Positions 2,037-47,698 of a stretch of DNA of 64,000 nt are shown here, in pieces. The DNA comes from Desulfuromonadaceae bacterium (GTDB lineage: Bacteria; Desulfobacterota; Desulfuromonadia; Desulfuromonadales; Desulfuromonadaceae): positions 1-64,000 of the forward strand of contig JAFGXV010000049.1 of NCBI GenBank assembly GCA_016936455.1, in the 5' to 3' direction. Position numbers and translations under genes: made by a program. How positions within the stretch are numbered: position 1 is the first letter of the stretch; each line of letters opens with the position of its first letter. The notes beneath the pieces are model-generated. The model had not been told where the DNA came from, did no database searches, and worked only from the letters and a program-made list of their open reading frames with translations.

Positions 2037-3128
2037 TTAGCGAATCAGGCGGAAGTGAAAACTGACGTAGCTGCCGTAGCGGCTGCGGGCATAGGCGTTG
2101 AGCAGCCAGTCCAATCCTTCGTTCATGGATGAAAAGGTCTTTTTCGGCGTGGCAATAGAGAGCGAAAGTTTGATGTCCGGGCTGATTTCAGCGACAACGC
2201 CTTCCACGGTCTTGCGGACAGTGCCAATAGACTTGTCCGGGGCGTCCTGACAGTAAACCACGTAATGGGTCGCGCTGCCGCCAATGCGGTAGTCCAGCGT
2301 CATCGGTGTGCGCATGCGGTTTTCCTGCAGTTTGCGCAAGGCCATATCGATGCGGGCCCGGGGGACGTCTTCGGCAGCCAGGCGCTCTTCAGCCGTCCCC
2401 TTGGTCCACAGCTTCTGCTGGGTTTTCAGCGCCTCGCGGTACCATTGGATGGCTTTTTCATAGTTGATGGTTTCGCTTTTGCCGTAGAAGAAATAGTCGC
2501 CGAGCATCAGGGCGGGTTTCGCGTCCTTTTCTTTTTCAGCGGCCAGGCGAAGCCATTTCTTGGCCTGCTCGTAGTCGGCCAGATTATGGTAGTACTCGCC
2601 CATTCGGGTCATGGCGGTGTAATTGCCTGCGTCAGCTGCGCGGATAAAACAGGCCTGGGCGTTGACGGCTGGATTGTCAGCTTTGAGTGTCCCGTTTTCG
2701 TAGAGCAGGCCCATGTTGTAAAGCAGAGCCCCATCCGCGACCGGTTGCTGCTGCAGTTGGTCAAATGCCTGATTGAACAGGGTGGTGGCGGCGGCCTGGT
2801 TTTTGCCCAGCAGGCCGGTCAGGCATTGGCTGGCATTCGTGTTGAAGACGGTATAGCCCTTGGGGAGATTGTTGCTGTAGCTTTCGGCCAGCAAGATCTG
2901 TGCAGCAGGCAGCCCACGATCGACGGCCATGTGCAGGAAATCAAGCCCGGTCTGGCGCAGGTCATCATCCTGACGGCAGACAAACTCTTTGCCGCGTTCA
3001 AAATAGTCCTGACTGTCACACTTCCAACAAATCTTGTAGCTGTAATTGTTCAGGATTGCGGCGCTGGCAATGGCAACGCAGCCGATGAAGAACAGGATGT
3101 TGAGAATCAGTCGTTTTCTGGAAGTCAT
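2037..3128 (-). CDS. Sel1/TPR-repeat protein with N-terminal membrane anchor
   Basis: Sel1-type repeats (GDYFFYGKSETINYEKAIQWYREAL), N-terminal TM followed by CWKC. Confidence 0.75.
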   Translation of the reverse strand: MTSRKRLILNILFFIGCVAIASAAILNNYSYKICWKCDSQDYFERGKEFVCRQDDDLRQTGLDFLHMAVDRGLPAAQILLAESYSNNLPKGYTVFNTNASQCLTGLLGKNQAAATTLFNQAFDQLQQQPVADGALLYNMGLLYENGTLKADNPAVNAQACFIRAADAGNYTAMTRMGEYYHNLADYEQAKKWLRLAAEKEKDAKPALMLGDYFFYGKSETINYEKAIQWYREALKTQQKLWTKGTAEERLAAEDVPRARIDMALRKLQENRMRTPMTLDYRIGGSATHYVVYCQDAPDKSIGTVRKTVEGVVAEISPDIKLSLSIATPKKTFSSMNEGLDWLLNAYARSRYGSYVSFHFRLIR

Positions 3129-3146
3129 TACGCCACTCTCACCCTA

Positions 3147-3989
3147 TCAGTTGCCGGGAAGAAGATCATGCGGATTGCCGTGACAGGCCGCGCAGCCAGA
3201 GAAGCCTTTCAGCATTTCCGGGCTGTGGGGGGTGTCGTGACAGTCGGCGCAGGTGGGGACCATGCCATGCTCGTCGGCATGACAGAAGGTGCAGTTGAGC
3301 AGGCTGTGGGCCAGATGCCCCTTTTTAAGCTGCGCCACCTGATCAGAATGGCAACCTTGGCAGCCGTCATTCGGCACGTGCTCGCCGTAGGAGAGCGTAC
3401 TGACATTGTGGACCGGATGGCACAGCATGCAGTTCTGGCTGCTGACAAAGGGGTTGTGGGGCTGCTCGTGGCACTCGGTGCATTTAGGCAGATAGCCGTG
3501 CTTCTGCTGATGGCAGTCACTGCAGGCCAGCTCAGAGTGCGCACTGGGTTTGGCCATGTCCGCGGCGGGTTTTTCGTGGCAGCGTGCGCAGAGCGGTTCA
3601 AGCCGGTCAAGAGGCAGGCTGGCAATGGGGGCGTGCGCGTTGACGTGACAGCTCAGGCAGTCGAGCATGGGGGCCTTGTCGCCGTGTGGGGCATCATGAC
3701 AGTTGGCGCAGGCAGGAACACGCTCCGCCCAGCTCAGGCCGCGCGTAAAATTGTGAAACGTCTCATGACATTCACGGCACTCCATGCGGTGGGCTCCTCC
3801 GATATCTCGCAGGGCATTGAAGACGGCTTCATGACACTGGCCGCACTGAACCGTGGTGAACGGGGGAACATCCTGACTGTAGATATCCTCTTCAGCCTGG
3901 AGATGCTGTGATCCGGCGAGCAGCAGGGCTGATAGGAAGGCGCCGGTTACGGCTATCTGTAGCAACCTGTTTTTCATGGTTATCCTCAT
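3147..3989 (-). CDS. Dodecahaem c-type cytochrome (12 CxxCH), exported
   Basis: 12 CxxCH counted; signal peptide MKNRLLQIAVTGAFLSALLLAGSQHLQA. Confidence 0.9.
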   Translation of the reverse strand: MRITMKNRLLQIAVTGAFLSALLLAGSQHLQAEEDIYSQDVPPFTTVQCGQCHEAVFNALRDIGGAHRMECRECHETFHNFTRGLSWAERVPACANCHDAPHGDKAPMLDCLSCHVNAHAPIASLPLDRLEPLCARCHEKPAADMAKPSAHSELACSDCHQQKHGYLPKCTECHEQPHNPFVSSQNCMLCHPVHNVSTLSYGEHVPNDGCQGCHSDQVAQLKKGHLAHSLLNCTFCHADEHGMVPTCADCHDTPHSPEMLKGFSGCAACHGNPHDLLPGN

Positions 3990-4008
3990 TCAAAAAAACC
4001 GCTATCAA

Positions 4009-5310
4009 CTAATTGCGCAAATCGTGCGGCCCCTGGTGACACCGGCTGCAATCACGGAATTGCTGGTGGATACTGGAATCGTGCGGCTCGCCGTGGCAGT
4101 TGTCGCAGCTCAGAATTACCTTATGAGTGCGGCGGTGGCAGAAAACACAGTCCAGCTTGGCGTGGCGTGTCGTGTTGGAGGACAGGCTGGCCATGGGGGC
4201 CTTGTGGCAACTGGCGCACAGTGTCGATTTGACCTTGCCCTGCTCCAACTGCAGGTAGGTCGGCGAGTGGGGACGGTGGCAGGCCAGGCAGTCGTCATAG
4301 TTCATGCTGGCATTGTGGCCGCTGTGGCAATCGAGGCAGCTCATGGCTTCGCCGTGCTGGGCGTGGCATTCGCTGCAGTCCATGTCAGTGTGGGCGCTGG
4401 TGTGAGCCGTCATCTCACGACCGGGACCAGCATGGCAGGACAGGCACACCGGTTTGACCGGCGAAACCGACGACATGTCAATGGCCAACGGTTTATGCGG
4501 GTTGTGGCAGGCGCTACAGTTGCCGACGCGGTAATGCTCGGCATCGCTTTTGGCATGGCAGTCGTTGCAGCTGGGGATGACGTTTTCCTGCGCTGGCGGA
4601 TGGTTCTGGTGACAGTCGATGCAGGCAATTTCGCTGGCATGGGCGGCACCTTCCTTTTTCAGGTTGGCAACCGGCTCTTCATGGCAGGCCGCGCACCAGT
4701 CGCTCGGCGTGTTGTCGCGCCATTGGTAATCGGTCGGCTGATGCGGATCGTGACAGCCGAGGCAGTCCTGGTAGCTCATGCCGGCTTGATGTGCCTCATG
4801 GCAGTCCAGACAGGTCGAGAACTGACCCGCCGACAGTCCGTGCTGCTGGTGACAGTCGATGCAGTTCTGTTCGGCATGCAGGCTTGGTTTGTCGGCCATG
4901 CGTTGTCCGATTCTGTCGTGGCAGGTCAGGCAGGCCGGTTTGGCCTCAGGCAGCACACTGAGATCGGTAATGCCCGGAGCGTGAGGGGCATGGCAGGACT
5001 GACAGTTTGCCAGGGCGAAATGGTGCCGGTCATCGGGGGCGTGGCAATTGCTGCACTGAGGAATGACAGCCTTGCCGGCAGGAGGGTGCCCCTCGTGACA
5101 GTCAAAGCAGCCGATTTCTGTTTTGTGCGCGCCGCCATTGTCGCGGATCTGCAGCGACGGTGCGCGGTGGCACTTGATGCAGTCGCTGTCTGTCAGCGGG
5201 ATTTCCTGAACGGGATTTTTACTCTGGGCCATGGCGGATGGCTGCAGTCCACTGCTCAAAAGCAGCGCGCAGGTGGCCAGAATGAAAAGAAGTCTGTGAT
5301 GACCGGTCAT
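4009..5310 (-). CDS. 20-haem c-type cytochrome, exported
   Basis: 20 CxxCH counted; signal peptide; internal duplication of an 8-haem module. Confidence 0.9.
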   Translation of the reverse strand: MTGHHRLLFILATCALLLSSGLQPSAMAQSKNPVQEIPLTDSDCIKCHRAPSLQIRDNGGAHKTEIGCFDCHEGHPPAGKAVIPQCSNCHAPDDRHHFALANCQSCHAPHAPGITDLSVLPEAKPACLTCHDRIGQRMADKPSLHAEQNCIDCHQQHGLSAGQFSTCLDCHEAHQAGMSYQDCLGCHDPHQPTDYQWRDNTPSDWCAACHEEPVANLKKEGAAHASEIACIDCHQNHPPAQENVIPSCNDCHAKSDAEHYRVGNCSACHNPHKPLAIDMSSVSPVKPVCLSCHAGPGREMTAHTSAHTDMDCSECHAQHGEAMSCLDCHSGHNASMNYDDCLACHRPHSPTYLQLEQGKVKSTLCASCHKAPMASLSSNTTRHAKLDCVFCHRRTHKVILSCDNCHGEPHDSSIHQQFRDCSRCHQGPHDLRN

Positions 5311-5377
5311 GATCGTAACCTAAAGCGCAAACCTCATGGGGTTTACGTCAAGAATTGGATGGAGGCTCGATAACCAG

Positions 5378-5406
5378 GCCGCCGTGACCCGTGCGGTCAC
5401 GGCGGC
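5378..5406. other. Intercistronic 12-bp perfect hairpin between cytochrome genes
   Basis: GCCGCCGTGACC-CGTGC-GGTCACGGCGGC, no T-tract. Confidence 0.8.
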
Positions 5407-5417
5407 GGCTGATCGAT

Positions 5418-6197
5418 TTATTCCGCCAAGGCGTGCGGATTGAGGTGACAATCAACACAGTTGGGGAATTTCTGGTGCATGGAGCCGTGCGGTTCGTCAT
5501 GGCACTCGCGGCAGCTGGTGATGGCCATATGCTGGCCGCTGTGACATGTGGCACAGTTCAGCTCGTGGTGTTTTTTCTTCGAAGCGCTGAGCATGGCTGC
5601 GATGTCATCATGACAGGGAGCGCACTGGGCCGATGCCAGGTCATCCTTGTAGGCGACTTCTTTCGGGCTGTGCGGTTTGTGACACAGGGTGCAGTCGGCA
5701 ACAGTCTGACTTGCGGCATGGCCTTCATGGCAGTCGAGGCAGTTGAGGTACTGGCCTTTGCCGAGACCATGCGCCAGGTGACAGGCATTGCAGTCCTGCT
5801 CCGAGTGCAGGCTGGGGTGGGCCGCCATTTCTGCGCCCTGATCGGGGTGGCAGGTCAGGCAGGCGGGTTTGACATTGCTTTGGGCGCTGAAGTCGATCTG
5901 AAGTGGATGGTGGGGATAGTGACAGCCGCTGCATTCCGTCAATTTATAGTGGTCATTTTCAGCGGGGTCGTGGCACAGGGAGCACTTGGGGATGACGTCG
6001 GTCCCTGTCGGCGGGTGCTCTGCGTGACAGTCCTGGCAGCCCATGCCCGCATGGGCCTCGCCGTGGGCGGCCACATCCTGAACGGCCTTCACATGGCATT
6101 TAACGCAGTCGGCGTCGAGCAGGTTTTCGCTGTCTGCGGCAAGGGCGGGAGCGGCCAGCAGGGCCATCGCCATGGCAATCGGCAAAAAGAGTTTCAT
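5418..6197 (-). CDS. Dodecahaem c-type cytochrome (12 CxxCH), exported; paralogue of the 20-haem protein
   Basis: 12 CxxCH counted; signal peptide MKLFLPIAMAMALLAAPALA. Confidence 0.9.
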   Translation of the reverse strand: MKLFLPIAMAMALLAAPALAADSENLLDADCVKCHVKAVQDVAAHGEAHAGMGCQDCHAEHPPTGTDVIPKCSLCHDPAENDHYKLTECSGCHYPHHPLQIDFSAQSNVKPACLTCHPDQGAEMAAHPSLHSEQDCNACHLAHGLGKGQYLNCLDCHEGHAASQTVADCTLCHKPHSPKEVAYKDDLASAQCAPCHDDIAAMLSASKKKHHELNCATCHSGQHMAITSCRECHDEPHGSMHQKFPNCVDCHLNPHALAE

Positions 6198-26489: not shown

Positions 26490-27530
26490 ATGAAGAGAAT
26501 CCTGTTGTGTAGTGCTGTTGTGATGTTTGTGACAGCTTTTACGTTTTCCAGCCTGTGGGCGATGAGCGTGGAAGAGTGTCTGGAATGTCACAGCGATGCC
26601 GAGTTGGTAGGGGATGCAAATCAGATTAACGGCCCGGCGTTTATGGCTACTGATCACGCCGGTGAAGGCTGTGTCGCCTGCCACGAGGTCAGTGACGAGC
26701 ATCCCGATGATGGTGCTGAAGTTGGGAAGGCAGCGGTGTGTGCGGATTGCCATGATGGTGTCGAGGCGACCTACTCTGCCAGTGTCCATGGTGCGAATGC
26801 GACCTGTACGGATTGCCATGATGTGCACAGAGCTCAAGCGCCAGTCAGTTTGTCCGGGATTCAGATGAACCAGTCCTGTCAGGGCTGTCACGACTATGTT
26901 GAGGTCGAGACGTCTCATGGGCGCTGGCTACCTGAGGCAGATATCCATGTGCGTTCGGTGCCCTGTGTTACCTGCCACAGCTCGACCAATCAATTTGTCG
27001 TGACTCTGTATGTCATGGAGCGTGAAGGTGGCCGCGCATATGCTGACTTCAAACTGACTGATTATGCCAAGCTGAAAGAGGAAGTTGGTTCGGATGACGT
27101 GACTCTGCTGCTGGATGTGGATCGTAATGGTGAAATCTCCCTGTCAGAGCTGAACAGTTTTTACGATGGAACGGCTAAGCACGGGATGCGCCTGTGGGCG
27201 ATGATGACGCCGGAAACGGTCGATCATGATTTCAGTACCATGGATAATCGCTGGGACTGCACCTACTGTCATGCCGCGGGTCCTGAGGCCATGAGCAGCA
27301 GTTTTGTGGCGTTCCCGCAGCCTGACGGCACGTATAAGCGCCTGCCGATGCAAGCTGGCGCAACGGTTGACGCGTTGTTTGGTACCCCTGATTTCTACAT
27401 GGTTGGGGCAACCCGCAGTAAAATTTTGAACTATATCGGTTTGTTGATTCTGCTGGGTGGTCTGGCCATGCCGATCGGTCATGGTAGTCTGCGTTTCCTG
27501 ACCCGCAAAAATCGTAGAAAGGATCATTAA
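26490..27530 (+). CDS. cbcA: CbcA-like heptahaem c-type cytochrome with EF-hand-like loop and C-terminal membrane anchor
   Basis: 7 CxxCH counted; DVDRNGEISLSE; C-terminal TM; followed by cytochrome b gene. Confidence 0.8.
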   Translation: MKRILLCSAVVMFVTAFTFSSLWAMSVEECLECHSDAELVGDANQINGPAFMATDHAGEGCVACHEVSDEHPDDGAEVGKAAVCADCHDGVEATYSASVHGANATCTDCHDVHRAQAPVSLSGIQMNQSCQGCHDYVEVETSHGRWLPEADIHVRSVPCVTCHSSTNQFVVTLYVMEREGGRAYADFKLTDYAKLKEEVGSDDVTLLLDVDRNGEISLSELNSFYDGTAKHGMRLWAMMTPETVDHDFSTMDNRWDCTYCHAAGPEAMSSSFVAFPQPDGTYKRLPMQAGATVDALFGTPDFYMVGATRSKILNYIGLLILLGGLAMPIGHGSLRFLTRKNRRKDH

Positions 27531-27535
27531 TTGTC

Positions 27536-28168
27536 ATGCAAGAACGTATTTATCTGACACCGACGCCGGTCCGCATCTGGCACTGGTTGAATGCATTAGG
27601 TATTGTGACCCTGTGTGTGACCGGGGCCCAGATTCGGTTCCCTGAGTATGTAAACTTTTTTGGTACCTATAAGGCGGCCATCCGTCTGCACCATACGGCA
27701 GGTATCGTTGTTGCTCTGTCGTTTATCCTGTGGCTGTTTTACTATGGTGTTGTCGCAAAAATGCTGGTCAAGCTCTACGTTCCGACGGGAGAAGATCTCA
27801 AGGTCGGGGCAATTCGCCAGGCGATTTTCTACTTTTTTTACTATTTCACCGGGACCAAAGAGAATCCTCACCAGGAGTCACCGACCAATAAGTTCAATCC
27901 CATGCAGAAGGGTGCTTACGTCGTCATTATGATGGTTCTTGTTCCCCTGATTATTGTCACGGGTCTCGTTCTGTTGAATCTTGAGCCGCTGCGTGAACTG
28001 TTGCATGTGTTCGGTGGCGTGCGTGTGGTCGCGGGGATTCACTTTCTGGTTGCTTGCGCGCTGTGCGCGTTTCTGCCGACCCATTTTTATCTGGCAACCT
28101 TGGGTCATACACCCTTTGCGCACTTCAAGCCCATGTGGACCGGCTGGGAAGATCATCACGATCATTAA
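27536..28168 (+). CDS. cbcB: CbcB-like di-haem cytochrome b subunit
   Basis: TPVRIWHWLNALGIVTLCVTGAQI, RLHHTAGI, GIHFLVA: cytochrome b561-type TM His motifs. Confidence 0.82.
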   Translation: MQERIYLTPTPVRIWHWLNALGIVTLCVTGAQIRFPEYVNFFGTYKAAIRLHHTAGIVVALSFILWLFYYGVVAKMLVKLYVPTGEDLKVGAIRQAIFYFFYYFTGTKENPHQESPTNKFNPMQKGAYVVIMMVLVPLIIVTGLVLLNLEPLRELLHVFGGVRVVAGIHFLVACALCAFLPTHFYLATLGHTPFAHFKPMWTGWEDHHDH

Positions 28169-43817: not shown

Positions 43818-45224
43818 TTATTCCGGGTTGCCGGAAGGATAGGTGGTGGGTTTCGAGCGCTTGTCGAGGCTGACAGTTTCCTGCCATTCACGCCACAGGG
43901 CCGCGCTGGACATGGTGCCGAACGGCTTGTACCAGAGCTGAACCGTAACGGTCATCTCGCGCTCCTCTGCGACTTGCCCGCCATTGTCCAGTTCTTCCAC
44001 CGGGAAGAAGATGTCAAAACGCTCTTCCACTTCCTTGCCAGGGGGCAGGCCGGTGTCTTCGACAATGGAGCTCTTCTCGTAGGGACCGCGTCCCATGTTG
44101 TTGCCGCGTGCCATCAGCTGAGGCGTCGGCATGTAGATAATTTCTTTTTCGAACAATTCGTCATCGTCTTCCGTAGCTGCTTTTACCGACAGAACCAGTC
44201 GGTTAGGGGTCGGTCAGCCGTCGGGAATGGAATGGCCGGATTTGTTCTTCATCTTGACCTTGACCACGGCCTTCGGCTTCAGGGTGCTGCCGTCAAGCCA
44301 CTGAGAGGCATAGGCATCAACCTCGAAGTCCAGCGCCATTTCCTGCATTTTTTCATCGCTGTAGCTCAGGATCTTGTGGCCCAGACCGCTTTTCTTCATG
44401 TGGCATTCCTGACAGGTCTCATGACCGCCTTCGGCCGTGTAGGCCCACATGTAGCTGCCGTACAGGGTGGCGCACTGGGTCGGGTTCTCCAGCTCCAGGT
44501 TCGGACCCATGCCATGGCATTGGCCGCAGAGGATGGACTCGTCCATGATCAGGCTGCGTTTCATCTTGGTGAATTTCGCGTCGTCGTGTTCACCGTCGTT
44601 GAAACCGTAAACCGTGTCGTGCTGCGGATAGCCATCGGTCCATTTGTGGGTGATGGCCATGCGGTTGTGGCACACGAGGCAGTTGATGTTTAGGCTGGTC
44701 AGGGTTTCCTGGTATGCGTCACGCTTGGCTGCGGCCTTTTTGTTGTCGGGGTCTTTCAGGGCCAGCTTGGCATTCTCATACCAGTCCAACAGGGTGTCGG
44801 CCAACTCGACAGCGACCTTGTCCTCCGCGTCAGCAAGCTGTGGCAGGTGGCACTTCATGCACCCCATAAAATGCTCAACCTTGATGTCCTTGGTGGTTTT
44901 GACGCCGGAGTATTCCCACGACATAAAGCCATTTTTCATGGCGGTGATCATGGTTGCCGCGGCACGGCCGGTTCCGTAAATGGAGCGTGCGTGGGGAGAA
45001 GCTTCCCACTGCTCGTGAGCTTCTTCATGACACTCGATACAGGACGAGGAGTCATACATGGCGATCAGCTCCTTGAGGCTGCTCGCCTTGCCGCTTTTTG
45101 CTGCAATGGTGCCGTCACGACCGACGCCGGCACCCAGCTTGGGGCTGGTGGCCGTGACGCAGGAGGTCGTTGCCAGCAGCGTCATGGCAGCGATACTGAT
45201 AACTCTGAGTAATTTCATCGGCAT
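43818..45224 (-). CDS. extKL: ExtKL-like 5-haem lipoprotein cytochrome, predicted selenoprotein (in-frame TGA at 44214-44216)
   Basis: Lipobox LLATTSC; 5 CxxCH; ...GHSIPDG-[TGA]-PTPNRLVLSVKAATEDDDELFEKEIIYMPTPQ... one continuous frame. Confidence 0.8.
44185..44214 (-). promoter_or_regulatory. SECIS-like hairpin starting at the TGA
   Basis: ACCGAC-CCCT-AACC-GACT-GGTT-CT-GTCGGT. Confidence 0.7.
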
Positions 45225-45247
45225 TTCCTATTTGTTACGGTGAAAGT

Positions 45248-45281
45248 AAAGCTCCCGTCAGCAGGCTGACCGGGAGCTTTT
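45248..45281 (-). terminator. Terminator/attenuator hairpin between extJ- and extKL-like genes
   Basis: AAAGCTCCCG...CGGGAGCTTT. Confidence 0.7.
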
Positions 45282-45300
45282 CAGTAGTGCAGAGGTTTTT

Positions 45301-45528
45301 CTAGCAGCCGGTCAGTGCGTCCGCGCCGCCTTTGGCTTTTGATTTTTTAACTTTCATATCAACTTCGGCACCGACATCAATTTTTTTTGCATCTTTACCG
45401 TCAACTTTTACCGAAACGATGTCGCCATCAACGGCGGTAACGGTACCTTCGATTTTGCCTGCAAAGGCTGCGCTGCTGATGCCACCGATGAATGCTGCTG
45501 CTGCGATCAATACGACCAGTTTTTTCAT
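45301..45528 (-). CDS. Small exported protein (75 aa), ExtJ-position
   Basis: Signal peptide; IEGTVTAVDGDIVSVKVDGK. Confidence 0.7.
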   Translation of the reverse strand: MKKLVVLIAAAAFIGGISSAAFAGKIEGTVTAVDGDIVSVKVDGKDAKKIDVGAEVDMKVKKSKAKGGADALTGC

Positions 45529-45609
45529 GATATCTCTCCTTACGTTTGTTGGGTATGCCGGGGCGTTTCAACGATTGAATCGCTCCCGTTCTGTTACAGT
45601 TGTGTTGTT

Positions 45610-47427
45610 CTAGAACCAGGCTTCGATGGTCAGGTAGGCCTGATCCATGCGGTCGATCGGTGCCCAGAACTGTGCGTTGAGCGGATCGTCGAGGTCATCG
45701 ACATCCACCGGTGCGCCCAGCCAGTTGCCGCTGCCGGTGTAATCGTACTCATAGTGCTGGAAGCCAAGGCGCATGAAGGCGGCACACTTGTCGCTGAGCA
45801 GTTCGCCAACGGGCAGATCCCAGATCATGTAGACTTCGCCAACGTGACCGCGGGTGGCCAGCTTGGACTGAGTCATGTCGTCGTGGCCGGGGGTCATGGA
45901 GATCCAGTACTTGGTGCCGTAGTTGTACTCCAGACCGAATTTCAGGCCCAGGTCATCCAGGTCGTAGCGAACGCCAGCGTAGACGCAGTAGCCGTCTTTC
46001 TCGCCCGGATCTTCCCACCAGGAGCCGAGTAGGGTGGAACCCATCTCGTCAACGCCATCCGGATCGGTATGGCTCCAGCCGCCAGACAGGAAGTAGTTGA
46101 GGTCAGCAAATTTGTTCATGTAGACAAACGAGGTGTGGTAGATGTTGCCCAGATTCTCGGTGTCCAGAGTGCCGTTACTAATAGTGTGATCAGGGTCGAT
46201 AGCCAGTTCCAGCGGGTTGTAGAAAGTGACACCGTCGGGAACGTTGACAATGTTGGCGGCCAGGAAACTCTGGACGTTCAGGAACTGATGACCTTGGTCG
46301 ATAACATCCCAGCTGAGCCCGCCGAAGTCCATATCATCCAGGTTATTGGCGTTGTCCAGGGGCCCTGCTTCGAAGCCACGGCCGTAGCAGAAGCGCAGTT
46401 TGCTGTAGCCCAGCTCGTCGCTGAAGATGTTTTTGAAGCGGTAGCCGAGGGAGATGCCGTCAAAGGCATAGTCCATGAAATTGACCGGTGTCGCCATGCG
46501 CTCGTCGCGACCCATGCGCAGGTTGGCAGGCGGGCCATCAGTCGTCGGACGACGACCAACGGAGAACCAGATGGGCAGATCAAATACGTTGGTCCAGTTG
46601 ATGTAGCCACGGTCGACGCGCAGCACGCTGTCGTCCGGCTGACGAGTGGTGGCACCATCCATCTCGGAGAAGGAGTTCATGGTGTAAGGACCAGCGGTCG
46701 TCGGGTTGCTTTGCATACCCCATGCTTTGTACATGGCCAAGCGACCCTTGAATGTTACGTTCTCAGACACCTTTGCATTGACGCCGAGGCGGAAGCGGTT
46801 GGTGTAGAGTAGGTCGTTTTTGTAAGAGTCTTTTGCTGCCATTTCGTAACCAATGGGGCCCATTGTGCTAACATCCCACGCACCGAGTGCTGCTCCGATT
46901 GCAGCAGGAGTTTGTGGGAAACCAGCGGTGGCTAGCGCATTGAAGTTTTCAATCATGAACTTGCGATCTGCTGCAGAAACACCTTGCATCATGGAGACTG
47001 CACCCTGTACTGCCGTTGTCATCATAGCGGACTTTTCGGCAGTTGTTAGGGTGGGATTGGCATTCAGTGCCGACAAATTGAAACCTTGTCCTTGGATCAT
47101 GTTCGATGTGGCATCAGCAATGCTATCTGCTGCCCAATAAGCTTTGGTGTCGGCATCACTGTAGTCGGCGCGGAAACGGTAGTCGCCAGAGAACGATATG
47201 CGGTCGTTGTTGTCCCATTTGGCTGCTTTGCTTTCCAGCAGTTCAACCACGTCGGCGTTGTCATCGGACGTTTCACGGACTTCGTTCAGTTGCTCTTGCA
47301 GAACACTGAGTTGTTCGGTCAGAAGTTGAATCTGACGGGCCAAATCCTCTGTAGTGGGCGCTGCGAAGCTGGCGGCAGGAACCAGCATCAGGGCCGCGAG
47401 AATCAGGCCGAGGGCTTTTTTCACCAT
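45610..47427 (-). CDS. extI: Outer-membrane beta-barrel, DUF3373/ExtI-like channel with N-terminal coiled coil
   Basis: Signal peptide MVKKALGLILAALMLVPAASFA, coiled coil, barrel-like strands, C-terminal Phe (EAWF). Confidence 0.75.
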   Translation of the reverse strand: MVKKALGLILAALMLVPAASFAAPTTEDLARQIQLLTEQLSVLQEQLNEVRETSDDNADVVELLESKAAKWDNNDRISFSGDYRFRADYSDADTKAYWAADSIADATSNMIQGQGFNLSALNANPTLTTAEKSAMMTTAVQGAVSMMQGVSAADRKFMIENFNALATAGFPQTPAAIGAALGAWDVSTMGPIGYEMAAKDSYKNDLLYTNRFRLGVNAKVSENVTFKGRLAMYKAWGMQSNPTTAGPYTMNSFSEMDGATTRQPDDSVLRVDRGYINWTNVFDLPIWFSVGRRPTTDGPPANLRMGRDERMATPVNFMDYAFDGISLGYRFKNIFSDELGYSKLRFCYGRGFEAGPLDNANNLDDMDFGGLSWDVIDQGHQFLNVQSFLAANIVNVPDGVTFYNPLELAIDPDHTISNGTLDTENLGNIYHTSFVYMNKFADLNYFLSGGWSHTDPDGVDEMGSTLLGSWWEDPGEKDGYCVYAGVRYDLDDLGLKFGLEYNYGTKYWISMTPGHDDMTQSKLATRGHVGEVYMIWDLPVGELLSDKCAAFMRLGFQHYEYDYTGSGNWLGAPVDVDDLDDPLNAQFWAPIDRMDQAYLTIEAWF

Positions 47428-47698
47428 GTTTTTGCCTCCTTTGGTGCGTTGTGATGTGATGGAGCCACCGCCTTTTGGCAGTGTTAAGGCGATAACTCCG
47501 GCTTTATTTTTCTTTCCGTGATTTGGCGTTGTCACCGCGATTCAGCCAAATCTCTTTATATGCGTATAACACAATGTGTGCCAGAATTGTAACCGGTTGG
47601 AATGAATAGCCATTCTAAAGGGAGATGTTTTCTGTTGACTGTTTTGCAGCGATATCACGGTTTCTGTTGCGTAAAATCGCTGTGTTAAAGAACGAAAA

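Follow-up and report, generated by a model that had tools for sequence, protein, structure and literature searches.

An operon of modular multihaem cytochromes from a Desulfuromonadaceae genome whose middle protein appears to change length by eight-haem modules

The first 64,000 nucleotides of contig JAFGXV010000049.1 (Desulfuromonadaceae bacterium, from sediment, assembly GCA_016936455.1), hereafter the window, carry four consecutive genes on the minus strand that we call A, B, C and D. A, B and C encode multihaem cytochromes, and D encodes a haem-free protein. Our analysis of the letters suggests that A-B-C-D is probably an operon for exported electron-transfer proteins with bis-histidine (bis-His) haems throughout, the middle one evolving in length by 8-haem modules, and that these proteins act as periplasmic carriers or wires for extracellular respiration. 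In the mechanism that we propose, the proteins are built from one tetrahaem unit in three versions, arranged as (alpha-beta)n-tail. The middle protein gains and loses alpha-beta modules of eight haems by in-frame recombination between homologous modules, as the sequences of relatives show. Most likely, the proteins stand between inner-membrane oxidoreductases and a porin-cytochrome conduit of the outer membrane, where they would pass electrons on or hold them.

Results

Gene A (5418–6197, 259 amino acids (aa)) has 12 CxxCH motifs and a signal-peptide-like N-terminus. It is followed by gene B (4009–5310, 433 aa, 20 motifs) and gene C (3147–3989, 280 aa, 12 motifs). The intergenic distances are 107 base pairs (bp) between A and B, 19 bp between B and C and 18 bp between C and D. 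An original prediction, made from the sequence of the window, had counted 44 motifs in three consecutive genes, and this count is correct. It had also taken the range 2037–6197 for an operon of three cytochromes. The three cytochrome genes are there, but the range also includes D (2037–3128) as a fourth gene.

The spacing of CxxCH motifs in A, B and C has a period of four haems, and the repeat unit holds four haems in 76–85 residues. Comparison of unit with unit separates three tetrahaem types, alpha, beta and tail. Profiles of the three types, trained on the units of 20 relatives of B with A and C outside the training set, assign the order alpha-beta-tail to A, alpha-beta-alpha-beta-tail to B and a divergent alpha'-beta-tail to C. 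These profiles yield a grammar of (alpha-beta)n-tail, in which n is 1 for A and for C and 2 for B. In A, the 8-haem module (alpha and beta, haems 1–8) spans 5649–6131 and the tail (haems 9–12) 5421–5648. The first and second 8-haem modules of B lie at 4720–5205 and 4243–4719, followed by its tail (haems 17–20) at 4012–4242. C has its divergent 8-haem module at 3387–3869 and its tail at 3150–3386.

The 8-haem modules A(1–8), B(1–8) and B(9–16) score 426–440 with one another at 46–48% identity, and the tails of A and B score 174 at 42% identity. The proposed sums of 20 = 8+8+4 for B and 12 = 8+4 for A therefore hold. The module comparison score has a peak at an offset of 8 haems. Seven other multihaem proteins (three from the window, one from elsewhere in the same genome and three from a relative) reach, in their best stretches, at most 192 against the A and B modules, 150 against the C module and 88 against the tails. 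The copies in A and B thus resemble one another better than they resemble unrelated multihaem proteins by a clear margin, and the C module, at 195–253 with the A and B modules, does so by a smaller one. When every CxxCH was kept fixed and the remaining residues were shuffled, unit pairs of the same type from A and B (A1-B1-B3, A2-B2-B4, A3-B5) lay 7.3 to 12.2 standard deviations above the shuffles. Other pairs mostly lay below 5, the highest being C2-B2 at 7.5, a beta-beta pair. The shuffles, together with the scores against other multihaem proteins, rule out chance or composition as the source of the module similarity. In addition to these two lines, the profiles and the module tree described below support the origin by module duplication that had been suggested for these genes.

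The description of C as three tail-type repeats does not stand. For their best types, the C units score 40 (alpha), 56 (beta) and 69 (tail) bits. The first unit is weak, with 40 bits for alpha and 39 for beta; alpha is the best type for this unit in all 17 C-type proteins listed. The order alpha-beta-tail was read in 82 of the 82 twelve-haem proteins of the fetched loci, which were fetched by similarity. These readings rule out three tail units.

Each haem has its own conserved distal His, which predicts that every haem is bis-His, that is, an electron-transfer haem. In the alignment of A (39 of the 42 A-type proteins) there are 12 invariant non-motif His for 12 haems, and the alignment of C (32 of 40 C-type proteins) gives the same number. 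In B, 21 non-motif His are invariant for 20 haems across 21 rows of one architecture; the number becomes 18 when three rows of another architecture are included. These three rows (genomes G014, G020 and G023, loci L023, L024 and L025) represent a second kind of 20-haem protein, alpha-beta-beta-beta-tail, and so another route to 20 haems. In the giant relatives of B described below, 244/244 ligand positions of alpha, 306/312 of beta and 50/50 of tail units are kept, counting units of four haems, with those of 3, 5 or 8 haems excluded and the near-copies G018 and G135 both included. These ligands bear on the alternative that the genes encode a multihaem reductase complex, in which the proteins would form an enzyme and not a wire. 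Their profiles are distantly similar to NrfH and octahaem reductases, which would fit such a complex, but a conserved distal His on every haem leaves no evident open site for a substrate, and we regard an enzyme as highly improbable.

The operon is conserved among relatives. Of the 14 genomes in the window's family, 13 have a complete 20-haem gene B, with A just upstream each time; in the remaining genome (G004), the only match to B is a frame of 166 residues next to A. A also stands upstream of B in twelve named records, labelled Desulfuromonadales, Desulfobulbales or Deltaproteobacteria; in one of these records B is followed by a stretch of N. The C protein of A-B loci has 12 haems in most cases and 8 in four records, and D lies 3' of C in every A-B locus with enough room. 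The closest named records for A are metagenome-assembled genomes labelled Desulfuromonas, Desulfuromonadaceae or Desulfuromonadales, at 62–70% identity; the assembly of the window's own genome comprises 64 contigs and is incomplete, at 79%. In the class, 169 of 277 genomes have an A-like match. A phylum sample of 395 genomes gave 11 matches at E 1e-50 or better and no giant frame outside the order. A search of a plasmid collection returned a single weak match.

Giant versions of the middle gene occur in 12 of the 277 genomes of the class; the search matched 16 genomes, four of them through the 20-haem gene. The giants have 49 (G094), 53 (G032), 57 (G107, G108, G115), 65 (G051), 72 (G116), 73 (G057) and 77 (G018, G038, G135) haems, and that of G134 is split over two frames (54+16). 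In G094, G108 and G115 the segmentation merged two units at a boundary gap of 19–20 residues, which leaves the haem totals unchanged. The middle protein thus occurs with 12, 20, 49, 53, 57, 65, 72, 73 or 77 haems. Among these, 49, 57, 65 and 73 are spaced by eights, and 53 and 77 by 24. All complete giants end in the block a5-b-a-b-a-b-t, with one pentahaem alpha unit, and a C homologue lies 3' of each giant.

Close relatives indicate how the length changes. In three giants of one genus (G107, G108, G115) the modules are co-linear, with 53–67% identity on the diagonal and 31–47% off it. G116 carries additional modules, among them a pair that shares 79% identity, and the aligned module of its congener G107 is 54–56% identical to both. 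Judged by these identities, the pair is a recent 8-haem duplication. The genus of G107, G108 and G115 also includes G109, with a 20-haem gene B, and G113, with a 12-haem one. The DNA of these two genes is 88% identical; relative to G109, the G113 gene has an exact in-frame gap of eight haems, and the switch falls at the third CxxCH. The longest exact self-repeat in gene B of G109 is 11 bp, so a collapse of repeats during assembly is unlikely to explain the difference. The ladder of lengths with variants in relatives, expected by the original prediction, is borne out by the series of haem numbers, by this exact difference between congeners and by the duplication in G116. A short form is also found in another class, where the four genes A to D stand consecutively in G608 and its B has one module, nearest, with its tail, to the first module and tail of the window's B.

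In a tree of 94 modules, whose supports are values of the Shimodaira-Hasegawa-like approximate likelihood ratio test (SH-aLRT) only and are modest, the C modules form one clade (100), as do the first modules of B (97). The A module of the operon joins the first module of B (85), and the second module of B sits with most giant modules (91). Since A is closer to the first module of B, and the giant modules are closer to the second, B does not seem to be a simple doubling of A; the module phylogeny leaves a simple recent doubling unsupported.

One genus holds both states of the middle gene. L084 and L118 have a B close to that of the window (61–63% identity), and L079, L080, L105 and L106 have giants. 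The mixture suggests, from the sequences compared, replacement by transfer.

D (363 aa) has no CxxCH. It has one N-terminal hydrophobic helix, a CxxC just past the helix, and Sel1/TPR repeats, which are also its Pfam match. Of 21 full-length relatives, 19 have the CxxC directly after the helix, which is the only one. We take this combination of helix, CxxC and TPR to recall assembly factors of the CcmH/CcmI type. By this analogy, the conserved fourth gene is perhaps most likely a candidate dedicated assembly factor, which would help to assemble the haem-dense cytochromes at the membrane.

In close relatives, further genes follow the operon. G003, G009, L035 and L036 have two more multihaem genes after it on the same strand, with 10 and 10–13 motifs. 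Read gene by gene, L060 (G003) and L036 have D, a barrel-like protein, a 10-haem protein and a 13-haem lipoprotein. The barrel-like protein was called from its signal and C-terminal Phe, and the 13-haem lipoprotein carries MtrC/MtrF-like domains (Pfam, on L060 only). Elsewhere, paralogous A'C' pairs stand upstream of a barrel, lipoproteins, a peptidyl-prolyl isomerase (PPIase) and a 26-haem lipoprotein. A lipobox-like Cys is frequent in C' of these pairs and absent from C of the window's family. The signal-peptide-like N-termini and the absence of a lipobox suggest that A, B and C are periplasmic. A 12-haem homologue of A that stands alone (L148, L149), in genomes of a different family within the class, adjoins genes that we take to be pilMNOPQ-like.

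AlphaFold2 gave a mean predicted local distance difference test (pLDDT) of 85.2 and a predicted template modelling score (pTM) of 0.71 for A, and 75.9 and 0.47 for B. Foldseek found nothing in the PDB with E below 0.001 for either model. A second fold search with the two models matched NrfH over the tail, one STC and one MccA, with Z from 2.0 to 4.5. We do not read these weak matches of predicted models as a new fold. Among PDB chains, the A profile matched 3ov0 best (E 4.7e-10), and other multihaem chains as well. The Pfam matches of A, B and C are generic cytochrome c3/c7, doubled-CXXCH and similar domains only, and the sole NCBIfam cut-off reached among them is that of a generic doubled-CXXCH domain, in B.

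The gap between A and B contains a hairpin (5378–5406, minus strand) with a 12-bp stem. A hairpin recurs at this gap in relatives, with a stem of at least 9 pairs in 18 of 20 gaps; 12 of the 20 gaps reach a folding z of -4.9 or below. The stems are unrelated in sequence among relatives, and a T-rich stretch often lies 3' of the hairpin. The hairpin could be a partial terminator or an mRNA stabiliser that separates A from B-D. Elsewhere in the window, a five-haem protein adjoins a DUF3373 protein of 641 aa (44214–47535, minus strand), possibly a further porin-cytochrome pair, and a seven-haem protein is directly followed by a cytochrome b561-type membrane protein (26490–28168, plus strand), likely a quinone-linked module.

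Discussion

A periplasmic carrier or wire role is proposed because the ligands are conserved, the N-termini are signal-peptide-like and the operon context fits. Several observations weigh against it. The contig starts just downstream of the operon in the window, and no conduit lies beside the operon there. The barrel-like neighbour in L060 has no Pfam match. The best fold match, NrfH over the tail, is weak (Z 4.5 over 76 residues; NrfH range 3.7–4.5). In the ten giant loci scored, gene A is upstream of none, and D is present in five and was not found in the other five. Finally, the rise in OmcS is ~8 Å per haem. At this rise a 77-haem chain would be longer than the periplasm is wide, so at least some members must be something other than a straight trans-periplasmic wire.

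An alternative is that the proteins store electrons rather than transport them. They would serve as haem capacitors, keeping their charge while no acceptor can be reached, with the number of modules setting the capacity. The haem density (roughly one per 20 residues), the retention of almost all ligands and the excess of the giants over a straight trans-periplasmic span would suit this role, and storage is mentioned for an 86-motif cytochrome of D. acetexigens in the consulted text of PMC12133095. However, the operon precedes a conduit-like gene cluster in close relatives. In addition, a wire stores charge too, so the two roles cannot be told apart by sequence. We consider storage rather than transport unlikely.

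Alternatively, the proteins might be subunits of extracellular polymers like the OmcS, OmcE or OmcZ filaments. Their regular tandem haem repeats would be in line with this, and the 69-motif cytochrome of D. soudanensis is predicted to be extracellular (PMC4914508, in the part consulted). On the other hand, the match of the A profile to OmcS is marginal (E 0.0044, 30 positions), and no PPIase or secretion genes lie beside the window operon, although a PPIase adjoins the paralogous A'C' pairs. Polymer subunits seem quite unlikely, and periplasmic carriers or wires remain the function that we favour.

For such carriers, wire length may be both quantised and evolvable, a possibility that we put forward tentatively. 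Recombination at haem-motif-coding DNA would add or remove a single 8-haem module in each event, and selection would tune 12–77 haems to envelope geometry or charge capacity in each lineage, with the downstream 12-haem partner constant. Studies of how conduction and charge storage vary with haem-chain length usually compare unrelated proteins. Here one unit fold occurs as a natural series, mostly in 8-haem steps and at the same operon position, including a close pair one module apart. Chain length would therefore become testable as a single variable.

Known families and conduits resemble this system in part. The best NCBIfam match of B is the DmsE/MtrA decahaem family (TIGR03508), whose cut-off of 192.2 bits is missed by B (69.1), C (29.9) and A (29.6). 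B also misses the cut-off of the GSU2203 decahaem family (NF041028) with 28 of 325 bits; A and C are unlisted there. We take 3ov0 to be GSU1996, a 12-haem protein of tandem c7 repeats. A c7 repeat holds three haems, whereas the unit here has four in 76–85 residues, all with a conserved distal His, and the proteins fall outside the tandem c7 class.

ExtA and ExtG are periplasmic dodecahaem cytochromes of Geobacter conduits, according to the consulted text of PMC6148476. With 12 haems and a similar haem density, they are like A and C by description only. An ExtA/ExtG-like cluster with a barrel and an outer-surface cytochrome may have its counterpart in the gene order of L060 (G003) and L036 but has none in the window, where the contig begins just downstream, and in contrast to the conduit arrangement, five genomes of other families of the class have A without barrel neighbours. 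The A'C' pairs with a barrel, PPIase and 26-haem gene resemble the Oet-type conduit (OetABI) and the GSU2493-2500 block, by gene order only, as far as the consulted parts of PMC10553843 and PMC12977616 describe them; nothing of the kind lies beside the window operon.

Giant Desulfuromonas cytochromes are already in print. In the text consulted, DSOUD_0664 of D. soudanensis is the cytochrome with 69 motifs (PMC4914508), and cytochromes of high mass, carrying as many as 86 motifs, are expressed by D. acetexigens on electrodes and on iron oxides (PMC12133095). By description, these are like the giants found here in broad lineage by name, in very high haem number and in their link to extracellular respiration; the consulted text of the two papers describes no module structure for them. 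In the limited literature searched, supplements apart, we found no account of the alpha-beta-tail grammar, of a conserved 12-20-12-D operon or of 8-haem steps. The giants of this operon type may be explained as the reuse of one module rather than as new folds.

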